Under the pieces are notes generated by a model that was not told the DNA's origin, ran no database searches, and saw nothing but the letters and a program-made list of their open reading frames with translations. From Comamonas resistens (lineage in GTDB: Bacteria; Pseudomonadota; Gammaproteobacteria; Burkholderiales; Burkholderiaceae_C): 64,000 bases of DNA. Both the position numbers and the translations under genes were made by a program. This document shows positions 45,673 through 48,252 of this stretch, in pieces. The DNA is taken from NCBI RefSeq assembly GCF_030064165.1, contig NZ_CP125947.1, forward strand, positions 1,178,001 through 1,242,000, written 5' to 3'. Within the stretch, counting starts at the first letter, position 1. The number at the start of each line of letters is the position of its first letter.

Positions 45673-46785
45673 TCAGGCTGCCAGCAGGATGCGCAGCATG
45701 CGGCGCAGCGGCTCGGCAGCACCCCACAGCAGCTGGTCGCCGATCACGAAAGCGGACACGTACTCGGGGCCCATGTTGAGCTTGCGCACGCGGCCCACGG
45801 CCACTTCGAGGCCGCCGGTGGTCGCGGCAGGTGTCAGCTCCTTGACGGTCTCTGCGCGGTCATTGGCCACGAACTTGACCCAGGGATTGCCACCCTTGAT
45901 CAGCGCTTCGATCTCTTCCAGGGGCAGATCCTTCTTGAGCTTCAGCGTCAGCGCCAGGCTGTGGCAGCGCATGGCGCCGATGCGCACGCACAGGCCGTCG
46001 ACGGGGATGGTGGCTTCGGTGCCCAGGATCTTGTTGACTTCGGCCTGGCCCTTCCATTCCTCCTTGGACTGGCCATTGGGCAGTTGCACATCGATCCAGG
46101 GGATCAGGCCGCCGGCCAGAGGTGCGCCGAAGAATTCGGTGGGTACATCGGTACGGATGGTTTCGGCCACCTTGCGGTCGATTTCCAGGATGGCGGAAGC
46201 GGGTGTTGCCAGTTCGTCGGCCACGGCAGCGTGCACCACGCCCATGCCCTTGAGCAGTTCGCGCATATGGTTGGCGCCGCCGCCCGAAGCTGCCTGATAG
46301 GTCATGGAGCTGACCCACTCCACGAGACCGGCCTTGAACAGGCCGCCCAGGCCCATCAGCAGGATGGAGTTGGTGCAGTTGCCGCCGATCCAGTTCTTGC
46401 CGCCGGCGGCGAGCTTCTGCTTGATCAGGCCGTCGTTGACGGGGTCCAGCACGATGACGGCATCGCTCTCCATGCGCAGCGAGGAGGCTGCGTCGATCCA
46501 GTGGCCGTTCCAGCCGGCGGCGCGGATCTTGGGGAAGACTTCCTTGGTGTAGTCGCCGCCCTGGCAGGTGATGATGATGTCGCACTTGGACAGCTCGGCG
46601 ATGTCGTTGGCGTCCTTGAGCTGGGTGTGCACCGTGGCCATCGCGGGGGCCTTGCCGCCGGCATTGGAGGTGGAGAAGAACACCGGCTCAATCAGCGCGA
46701 AGTCGCCTTCGACCTGCATGCGGTCCATCAGCACGGAGCCGACCATGCCGCGCCAGCCCACCAAACCTACCAGTTGCTTACTCAT
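45673..46785 (-). CDS. asd: Aspartate-semialdehyde dehydrogenase
   Basis: This 370-residue enzyme of the aspartate pathway makes aspartate semialdehyde for lysine/diaminopimelate, threonine, isoleucine and methionine. The NADP loop is [16 protein letters not shown] (about 7-22), the catalytic Cys137 is in [15 protein letters not shown], and the catalytic His lies in the region after [15 protein letters not shown]. An AAAGGG ribosome-binding site 8 nt upstream of the ATG is complementary to a segment about 55 nt upstream (see the leader features). A 32-codon leader ORF precedes it. Confidence 0.96.
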
Positions 46786-46792
46786 TTGAAAT

Positions 46793-46872
46793 GCCCTTTC
46801 AGTTTTGAAAACCGTTGTTTTCGACTGCTTCGTCCGGCTCGTCTGAGCCGGAAAGGGCGCACGACGAACCGG
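46793..46872 (-). promoter_or_regulatory. Candidate RNA switch in the asd leader (SD sequestration)
   Basis: On the minus strand, GCCCTTTC (46851-46858) is perfectly complementary to GAAAGGGC (46793-46800), which contains the asd ribosome-binding site. A hairpin CCGGCTC-AGAC-GAGCCGG (46834-46851) competes with pairing of CCGGTTCGTC (46863-46872) to GACGAGCCGG (46834-46843). The second structure would trap the anti-SD segment in its loop. The pairings are seen directly; regulation is inferred. Confidence 0.5.
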
Positions 46873-46878
46873 GCTGGG

Positions 46879-46977
46879 TCAGCCTGTAATCGTCTTAATG
46901 GTGATTGCGCGCGCGTCCAGACCGGCAAGCATTGCGGGTGTGGCTGTTTCAGTGTTGAAGGTACGTGCGGCAAACAT
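46879..46977 (-). CDS. Putative leader peptide of asd, Thr/Ile-rich (32 aa)
   Basis: ATG at 46977 to TGA at 46879 encodes 32 residues beginning MFAARTFNTETATPAML and ending DARAITIKTITG. Seven residues are Thr, three Ile and one Lys, with the densest run at the end. This resembles the composition of the E. coli thr operon leader. Its stop is 94 nt before asd. It has no evident ribosome-binding site and begins about 4 nt after the transcription start predicted from TAGAAT at 46988, so it may be a near-leaderless message. Confidence 0.45.
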   Translation of the reverse strand: MFAARTFNTETATPAMLAGLDARAITIKTITG

Positions 46978-46987
46978 AAGAGTTGTC

Positions 46988-47015
46988 ATTCTAGCGACTA
47001 GAGAAAAAGCGTGAA
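46988..47015 (-). promoter_or_regulatory. Candidate asd promoter
   Basis: On the minus strand TTCACG (47010-47015) and TAGAAT (46988-46993) are spaced 16 bp. A second possible -35/-10 pair, TTGACT (47039-47044) with TAATTC 17 bp on, lies just upstream. Confidence 0.45.
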
Positions 47016-47041
47016 GAATTAAAAGTGCTTAAAACTATAGT

Positions 47042-47079
47042 CAAAACGTCGAAATAAATTATTTATTTATGACGTTTTG
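47042..47079. promoter_or_regulatory. AT-rich hairpin/palindrome upstream of asd
   Basis: CAAAACGTC...GACGTTTTG encloses AAATAAAT-T-ATTTATTT, giving 17 paired positions with one small bulge. It lies between the leuB terminator and the asd promoter and could be a protein-binding site. There is no T-run terminator context. Confidence 0.45.
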
Positions 47080-47110
47080 TTTTATCTGGCATCGAAAAAT
47101 ACGACAAACA

Positions 47111-47141
47111 TAAAGCCACCGCTTTTGCGGCGGTGGCTTCG
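47111..47141 (-). terminator. Intrinsic terminator after leuB
   Basis: AAGCCACCGC and GCGGTGGCTT form a 10-bp stem. On the minus strand it is followed by TTTATGTTTG. It isolates asd from the leu genes, so asd needs its own promoter. Confidence 0.8.
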
Positions 47142-47175
47142 CATCAGCCGTTCATGGTCATTTGATGGCCATCAG

Positions 47176-48252
47176 TCAGACGCTGGCCAGGGCTTTGACC
47201 ACGGCATCGCCCATCTGGGCGGTGCTGACCTTGGTCGTGCCTTCGCTGTAGATGTCGGCAGTGCGCAGGCCGTCTGCCAGCACCTTCTGCACGGCAGCTT
47301 CAATCCTCTGGGCAGCGGCTTCCTGGTTCAGCGAGAAACGCAGCATCATCGCGGCCGAGAGGATGGTGGCCAGCGGGTTGGCGATGCCCTTGCCGGCGAT
47401 ATCGGGAGCCGAGCCGTGGCTGGGTTCGTACAGGCCTTGCTTCTTGTCGTTGAGCGAGGCCGAGGGCAGCATGCCGATGGAGCCGGTCAGCATCGAGGCT
47501 TCGTCGGAGAGGATGTCGCCGAACATGTTGCCGGTGACGACCACGTCGAAGCGCTTGGGTTCCTTGACCAGCTGCATGGCGGCGTTGTCCACGTACATGT
47601 GGTCCAGAGCCACATCGGGGTACTGCTTGCCCACTTCGGTGACCACATCCTTCCACAGCTGGAAGGTTTCCAGCACATTGGCCTTGTCCACGCTGGTCAC
47701 ACGCTTGCTGCGCTTTTGCGCGGCCTGGAAGGCGACATGGGCGATACGCTCGATTTCGGGGCGGGTGTAGCGCATGGTGTCGAAGGCTTCCTCGGCGCCG
47801 GGGAAGTGGCCGTCGGGAGCCACACGGCGGCCGCGTGGCTGGCCGAAGTAGATGTCGCCGGTCAGCTCGCGGATGATGAGGATGTCGAGGCCTGCGACCA
47901 GCTCGGGCTTGAGGCTGGAGGCATGGGTCAGTTCCTTGTAGCAGATGGCGGGGCGGAAGTTGGCGAACAGGCCCAGGGCCTTGCGCAGGCCCAGGATGGC
48001 CTGCTCGGGGCGCAGCGGACGGTCCAGCGTGTCGTACTTCCAGTCGCCCACGGCGCCGAACAGGATGGCGTCGGCTTCCTGTGCCAGCTTCAGCGTGGCA
48101 GGAGGCAGGGGGTGGCCGGCAGCTTCATAGCCGGCACCGCCCACGGGAGCTGTCTCCATCTCCAGGCCCAGATTCAGGGCCTCAAGCACCTTGACGGCTT
48201 CCGCGACGATTTCGGGACCGATACCATCACCGGGCAAAACTGCAATCTTCAT
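47176..48252 (-). CDS. leuB: 3-isopropylmalate dehydrogenase
   Basis: This 358-residue NAD-dependent decarboxylating dehydrogenase belongs to leucine synthesis. Seen: [22 protein letters not shown] at the N-terminus, [13 protein letters not shown], the catalytic Tyr in [12 protein letters not shown], Lys in SVDKANVLE and the metal Asp pair in [14 protein letters not shown]. The LeuB-specific [18 protein letters not shown] is present. It is separated from leuD by 119 bp containing a repeat. Confidence 0.97.

Follow-up and report, generated by a model that had tools for sequence, protein, structure and literature searches.

The window analysed here is a 64,000-nucleotide stretch of Comamonas resistens (contig NZ_CP125947.1, positions 1,178,001 to 1,242,000), and all features described below lie on its minus strand. 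The gene proposed to be controlled is asd (45673..46785), which encodes aspartate-semialdehyde dehydrogenase. Upstream of it lies leuB (47176..48252), encoding 3-isopropylmalate dehydrogenase, and the window copy ends in ..AVVKALASV, without a Thr/Ile tail. A terminator-like hairpin (47140-47112) is located after leuB and before a predicted promoter with the -10 box TAGAAT (46988..46993). The promoter is followed by a small leader peptide gene of 32 codons and a TGA (MFAARTFNTETATPAMLAGLDARAITIKTITG; ATG at 46977 to TGA at 46879), which ends in AITIKTITG and is separated from asd by 93 bases. An initial annotation of this DNA had read the same open reading frame as the leader of a translational attenuator, and the frame is indeed present with this tail. 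A start at the in-frame ATG 46989, which would give 36 codons, was rejected, as it overlaps the -10 box and its transcription is therefore unlikely.

An AT-rich inverted repeat, AAAACGTC (47078-47071) ... GACGTTTT (47050-47043), spans 47043-47078 upstream of the leader promoter and contains a further palindrome. This possible operator has a similar counterpart at L005 and L007, both near Comamonas loci.

Predicted leader peptide and promoter

The C-terminal tail of the leader is conserved in relatives. In 74 nonredundant stand-alone leaders, 82% of the last nine residues are Thr, Ile or Lys (T 47%, K 18%, I 17%); the rest of the same leaders contains 8% T, 4% I and 1% K.

A TANNAT box ends 6-10 nt, mostly 8, upstream of the in-frame leader ATG in 69/74 of these leaders, and the same spacing is found at only 4/3316 other ATGs of those loci. 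The boxes are of the types TACAAT (42), TAGAAT (12), TAAAAT (8) and TATAAT (7), and the leaders that carry them are 28-39 residues long, with a median of 33. Given the usual distance between a -10 box and the transcription start, the transcript would begin at the leader AUG or a few bases from it. Based on this spacing, the leaders look leaderless or nearly so. For the window, the -10 box places the predicted start of the leader mRNA at ~46982-46980, so that its 5' UTR would be just a few bases long. A transcription start downstream of 46879 would have spoken against the attenuator; the likely start lies upstream of the leader, with the -10 box at 46993-46988. To our knowledge, no leaderless leader peptides have been described in this bacterial group.

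No clear -35 box was recognised in these promoters. By eye, TGTCAGC or TGTAAGC recurs about 21-23 bases upstream of the -10 box (for example in L020, L066, L071, L104, L121 and L141), a spacing that exceeds that of a normal -35 box.

Exclusive helices between the leader and asd

The RNA between the leader and asd can be divided into several pairing segments. Segment A, also counted as segment 2 (CCGGTTCGTC / CCGGUUCGUC; 46863..46872), lies directly 3' of the leader stop. It is followed by the anti-Shine-Dalgarno segment B (GCGCCCUUUC; 46851..46860), by segment C (CCGGCUC; 46845..46851) and by segment D (GACGAGCCGG; 46834..46843). Segment E is the asd ribosome-binding site itself (GAAAGGGC; 46793..46800), 7 nt upstream of the asd ATG at 46785. 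Segments B and D are supported by alignment and covariation, and C by folding and covariation. C forms the 5' arm of a local hairpin with D, and D is common to this hairpin and to a competing helix with A; pairing of A with D therefore breaks the C:D hairpin. In the minimum-energy fold, a variable hairpin GAAAAC/GUUUUC (46807..46822) is located between D and the ribosome-binding site, and both this hairpin and C:D are enclosed by the B:E helix.

The pairings that had been proposed from the window alone are all recovered. GCCCTTTC (46858-46851) fully complements GAAAGGGC (46800-46793) over 8 bp, CCGGCTC (46851-46845) forms the local hairpin with GAGCCGG (46840-46834), and CCGGTTCGTC (46872-46863) forms the competing helix with GACGAGCCGG (46843-46834) through 10 pairs, one of them G-U. 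The reported absence of a T run also holds, the longest T stretch being 4. In addition, the leader codons GACGA (segment 1; 46890..46894) pair with UCGUC (46867-46863) of segment 2 if no ribosome covers them, and enclose a stop-codon hairpin GGCUG/CAGCC; this pairing is seen in the minimum-energy fold and at edge -21 of the folding scan described below. The folding energy of 46989-46766 is lower than that of shuffled sequences (z -2.23), 3/200 shuffles being as low.

The helices were compared in a nonredundant set of loci (97 of 154 after a redundancy filter, 95 of them with the core motif). Changes in A and D track each other: the pairing is CCGG:CCGG in 61 of the 95 loci, CTGG:CCGG, with a G-U pair, in 14, CTGG:CCAG in 11 and TTGG:CCAG in 1. 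Wherever D carries CCAG (12 loci), A matches it as CTGG or TTGG and C does so as CTGG. A:D keeps one mismatch in four loci (Variovorax type), and in ten loci C is CTGG opposite CCGG in D, again with a G-U pair. For B:E, the mean match score is 15.8 with the own partner, 15.4 with foreign partners, hence a small gain, and 10.4 with a shuffled E; the own-partner mean was reached by 1/2000 permutations. Examples are GCCCUUUC:GAAAGGGC, GCCCCUUC:GAAGGGGC, GCGCC:GGCGC and GUGUGCCCU:AGGGCACAC. The initial annotation had tied its proposal to conservation in relatives, where the small open reading frame is kept with its Thr/Ile/Lys tail and the helices are kept with compensatory changes.

The effect of the ribosome position was calculated for 89 of the 95 sequences by equilibrium, pseudoknot-free folding of the RNA from the first free base at a mimicked ribosome edge to 30 bases inside asd. 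An edge at +3 represents a ribosome stalled in the tail and an edge at +15 a ribosome at the leader stop. Between the stalled and the at-stop position, mean A:D pairing falls from 0.64 to 0.11, C:D rises from 0.35 to 0.76 and B:E from 0.26 to 0.48, and the mean exposure of the asd ribosome-binding site decreases from 0.40 to 0.29. The direction of control put forward in the initial annotation is thus predicted in silico in 34/89 sequences, in which the site is more exposed when the ribosome is stalled, and the reverse in 2/89; the shift stays within 0.1 in 53/89. In comparison, dinucleotide shuffles gave 34 up (8%) and 51 down (11%) out of 445, with at most 14/89 up across 2000 shuffled sets.

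For the window itself, site exposure is 0.34 with a stalled ribosome and 0.06 with one at the stop. The edge at +6 is off this trend, the site being closed (0.05) and open at the neighbouring edges (0.34, 0.47). When the leader codons are freed too, at edge -21, the site is closed again (0.02) and GACGA is paired with UCGUC of A. This closed state in the absence of a ribosome is clear in the window and is a small effect in the family mean.

Distribution of the element and a probable leader within leuB

A covariance model of the asd element was built from 36 sequences. It has one strong match in the own genome (E 3e-22), and three further, weak matches have E values of 0.2 to 0.76, the next best being at 0.2. 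With E up to 0.01 and the best-scoring places listed, the model matches 305/399 genomes of the family, from 120/141 genera. A repeat search of the sixteen family genomes that had given extra matches found a single strong place in each, all others being weak (E 1.7e-4 to 0.0099). Since such second matches come near E 0.01, the 305 may include a few chance ones. In a sample of the order (E up to 0.001), 17/399 genomes match, namely 12/12 family members and five weak ones outside the family. Four of these five (L127-L130), for which asd was not found in the fetched stretch, look like chance; the fifth (L131) has a diverged leader at asd. The asd gene is present at all 118 family loci fetched via model matches (L089-L126 and L132-L211; some genomes twice). 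A search of the whole window against Rfam at the gathering score gave no relevant match, RF01732 included, and positions 46700-47180 at E up to 1 gave just two unrelated matches (E 0.79 and 0.87).

The initial relatives were the best 80 of 595 confirmed asd stretches, taken from named genomes. A small open reading frame with a Thr/Ile/Lys end precedes asd in Comamonas, Giesbergeria, Macromonas, Melaminivora, Tepidicella, Tepidimonas, Hydrogenophaga and others, with tails like ITKTTTIKG and ITIKTITG. The tail is followed in these genera by GGCUGA..CAGC..CGGUUCGUC, GCGCCC, CCGGCC and GACGAGCCGGG, and then by the ribosome-binding site GAAAGGGC. Neither the tail nor a model match is found in the relatives from Herbaspirillum, Janthinobacterium, Massilia and Gallionella, nor at the asd loci L019, L034 and L063, which belong to the family or to its kin. 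For the classification, 199 of 203 asd loci were counted, several genomes twice. Among the loci classed as having no element, L161 has a stand-alone leader whose core is variant, L052 carries a nested form that has decayed and L068 has the element on a cut contig. L069 and L131 are classed as stand-alone; they are diverged and were therefore left out of the nonredundant and folding sets.

In 42/199 asd loci (some genomes twice), the stop codon of the leader is the stop codon of leuB. These fused leuB genes end in ..AVVAAITKKTITG, ..MGDAVVAAITKKTITG, ..AITKTTIKG, ..LSSSTTKTTIKG and similar tails, and their end is separated from asd by 71-140 bases, in which the same RNA element follows. The closest solved LeuB (4iwh) ends at DAVVAAL; the Thr/Ile tail of the fused LeuB is thus an addition. 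This nested form goes beyond the initial annotation, as do the predicted (near-)leaderless start and the pairing of the leader codons GACGA with UCGUC.

The fused genes share a second feature further upstream. Their codons for Ala-Thr-Ile read GCT ACA AT in 40/40 readable fused loci, as against 0/82 with a separate leader and 1/33 without the element, in a tally that includes repeats and in which the codon stretch was found in 40 of the 42 fused loci. The two remaining fused loci belong to one genome and read GCT ACA ATG, and the single locus in the element-less class is the decayed nested form. GCT ACA AT contains TACAAT, the most frequent -10 hexamer among stand-alone leaders, and places it 13 bases upstream of an internal ATG ATG of leuB. 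In 24 nonredundant fused leuB genes (five loci were dropped), the codons before ATG ATG are GCT in 24/24, ACA in 24/24, GCT in 22/23 and GCC in 24/24; 112 other leuB genes, a phylogenetically broader set than the 24, have mainly GCC/GCG and ACC/ACG at those positions. The leuB-box pattern occurs in 128/399 family genomes, from 56/141 genera, and in 4/399 genomes of the order sample, all four being family members. The own genome of the window has no match to it.

The fused class had been selected partly by its Thr/Ile content. An independent test was provided by 40 further genomes from the 128, chosen by the leuB box alone, many of which were unsampled or weak in the model search. At least three Thr/Ile residues follow MGDAVV in 37/40 of these genomes, versus 0/83 stand-alone loci and 0/39 without the element. 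The RNA model matches 34/40, versus 3/45 other loci, which are L052 (decayed nested), L068 (contig cut) and L069 (diverged leader). Among the box-chosen loci, the model misses L220 and L225, whose tails are poor although a similar RNA follows by eye, and L230, L233 and L235, which do have tails. In L223, the box is kept in leuB, the tail is shrunk to NKSKG, asd begins 6 bases after the leuB stop and the model does not match; the attenuator has apparently been lost there.

Some nested loci, for example L217-L219, L224, L231, L237 and L246, have a different RNA shape, with CUCGCCC and an outer hairpin GGACCC ... GGGUCC around C:D. They resemble L076 (Rubrivivax).

Fused and stand-alone loci are mixed, with low support, in a LeuB tree of 106 rows, which requires 15 changes of form, at least two of them forced by the starred branches. 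A tree of 73 rows requires 8 changes, and a single fused clade is not rejected (AU p 0.507). Several independent nested origins are accordingly not claimed from the tree. Both forms are found within the genus codes g21, g51, g55, g71, g72, g88 and g115, which suggests repeated change, unless these genera are unnatural or the region moves between strains. Evolution thus appears to move the sensor into and out of a coding gene.

Proposed mechanism and comparison with known attenuators

We favour, with a probability of roughly 0.8, a ribosome-mediated attenuator that sets asd translation according to how much threonyl- and isoleucyl-tRNA is available, and whose leader is nested in leuB in many relatives. 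Lysyl-tRNA is perhaps sensed as well, or the Lys codons of the tail may instead be there for the pairing of the RNA. The sequences display the conservation, the covariation, the positional logic and the nested box with its tail; stalling, the transcription starts and the actual control of asd are inferences from them. A (near-)leaderless transcript would begin a few bases upstream of the leader ATG. With ample amino acids, the ribosome would reach the leader stop and cover A, so that C:D and B:E form and asd is closed. With scarce Thr or Ile, the ribosome would stall in the tail and leave A free to pair with D; C:D would then be blocked and E freed more often. Without any ribosome, the leader codons GACGA would pair with A and the closed state would return, a step for which the computation is clear in the window only.

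Where the leader is nested, it would consist of the final ~61 codons of leuB, translated in the same frame as the enzyme, and its -10 box would lie in synonymous codons just upstream of the internal Met-Met. It is likely that these codons serve both as the C-terminus of the enzyme and as the amino-acid sensor for asd, by means of an internal promoter, a restart at Met-Met and an added Thr/Ile/Lys stall tail, in up to a third of the sampled family genomes (box in 128/399). The same tail would also be reached by ribosomes that translate leuB in full, and the control of asd would thereby be coupled to leucine synthesis.

The output of such a leader could also be transcription termination, with a hairpin and a U-rich stretch upstream of the ribosome-binding site as terminator and the closure of the site as a secondary effect. 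A terminator-like hairpin with a T-rich tail is found in 12/95 nonredundant relatives, where 1.6 are expected from mononucleotide shuffles, and a T5 run lies in this region in 37/95; termination may therefore contribute in those 12. However, 83/95 relatives have no such hairpin in the same test, the window has no intrinsic terminator between the leader and asd, and the conserved, slightly locus-specific B:E match speaks against termination as the output, which makes this explanation unlikely. The translational reading of the initial annotation is supported in silico, with the 12 terminator-like hairpins as a reservation. The absence of an intrinsic terminator from the window would also suit Rho, loaded on the untranslated stretch past the leader stop, which is C-rich by eye, unless ribosomes on the leader or on asd shield it. 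Such Rho-dependent control leaves the compensatory changes in A, C and D unexplained and is very improbable. We give hardly any credence to a trans-acting protein or small RNA that binds the conserved stem-loop and makes the small open reading frame incidental: UCGUC and ACGAG are invariant in all 36 rows of alignment A1, as such binding would allow, but the composition of the tail suits the pathway despite varied codons, and the tail is retained even inside leuB.

In genomes with the nested form, the TACAAT box and the tail of leuB could instead be lineage-specific quirks of codon use and protein sequence, with neither promoter nor leader. The loci are not independent, since a single fused origin is not rejected (AU p 0.507); a -35 box was not recognised; and the fused set has further invariant codons (AGC, GAC, GTG, GAC) in a comparison with a broader set of genes. 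These other codons are likewise the commonest ones in other leuB genes, however, where GCT and ACA are rare at the box. The leuB hexamer is identical to the box of 42/69 stand-alone leaders, the box alone predicts the tail in 37/40 and the RNA element in 34/40 new genomes, and at least seven genus codes hold both forms. Mere quirks are thus a distinctly unlikely account, and the leader nested in leuB is retained as the preferred reading.

The enterobacterial thr, ilv and his operons are controlled by leader-peptide transcription attenuators, and the thr leader is rich in Thr and Ile. The asd element shares with them a leader rich in the regulatory residues, exclusive helices, a leader-codon segment that pairs with segment 2, and a biosynthetic target. 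It differs in its target gene, in its predicted translational output, in its predicted (near-)leaderless start and, in relatives, in its nesting within leuB. As in amino-acid attenuators generally, a leader with codons of the pathway, exclusive helices chosen in silico by ribosome position and a target in the pathway are all present. The ribosome-binding site is sequestered by an anti-Shine-Dalgarno segment and freed on stalling, again in silico, as in translational attenuators; the intrinsic terminator that precedes the structural gene in classical attenuators is not found at the asd element of the window. In translational attenuators of the ermC/cat type, a stalled leader ribosome opens a sequestered site, and antibiotics are sensed through the nascent peptide. 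The same opening is proposed for asd, where the signal would be scarce aminoacyl-tRNA.

Among the matches listed, the nearest described arrangement appears to be the LEU element, upstream of leuA in Actinobacteria, which combines leader codons with alternative structures involving the ribosome-binding site (PMC1262725). Both elements thus have a leader with regulatory codons and alternative structures at the ribosome-binding site of a biosynthetic gene. In the LEU element, it is the run of leucine codons that pairs with the ribosome-binding site, and a pseudoknot has been proposed (PMC1262725). The asd site pairs with the post-stop segment B, in the fold as in the alignment; sequence, residues and gene are also different. 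Leaderless leader peptides (LeuL1, LeuL2, TrpL1 and IlvL) are described from RNA-seq of Streptomyces lividans (PMC8079986). Their mRNAs start at or next to the start codon, as predicted for the asd leader from its -10 box only; they differ in belonging to Actinobacteria. The asd RNA motif RF01732 of Lactobacillales, in whose description (PMC2864571) the main text does not use the words "leader peptide", shares the asd name with the present element, comes from another lineage and is not related to it by any Rfam match.

Among the literature matches listed, with subscription papers mostly outside their scope, neither an asd leader in these bacteria nor the nesting of a leader within leuB is reported. 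The nested leader is the novel part of the finding. The asd element would be a widespread amino-acid attenuator at the Thr/Ile/Lys/Met branch point of a large bacterial family, absent from the Rfam copy searched. The nested form would mean that a regulatory leader can hide within the 3'-terminal part of a conserved enzyme gene; annotation takes such a leader for an ordinary C-terminus and its synonymous codons for neutral. Similar tails on other enzymes could expose more hidden sensors.

The diverged leaders of L069 (Ralstonia sp.) and L131 (from another family) end in IRTTTKIITKKTIS and ITKTITTKTIIKR upstream of asd and are followed by the diverged RNA CGTCCGTCGTGCCC. A wider group of Burkholderiales may therefore carry related asd attenuators.
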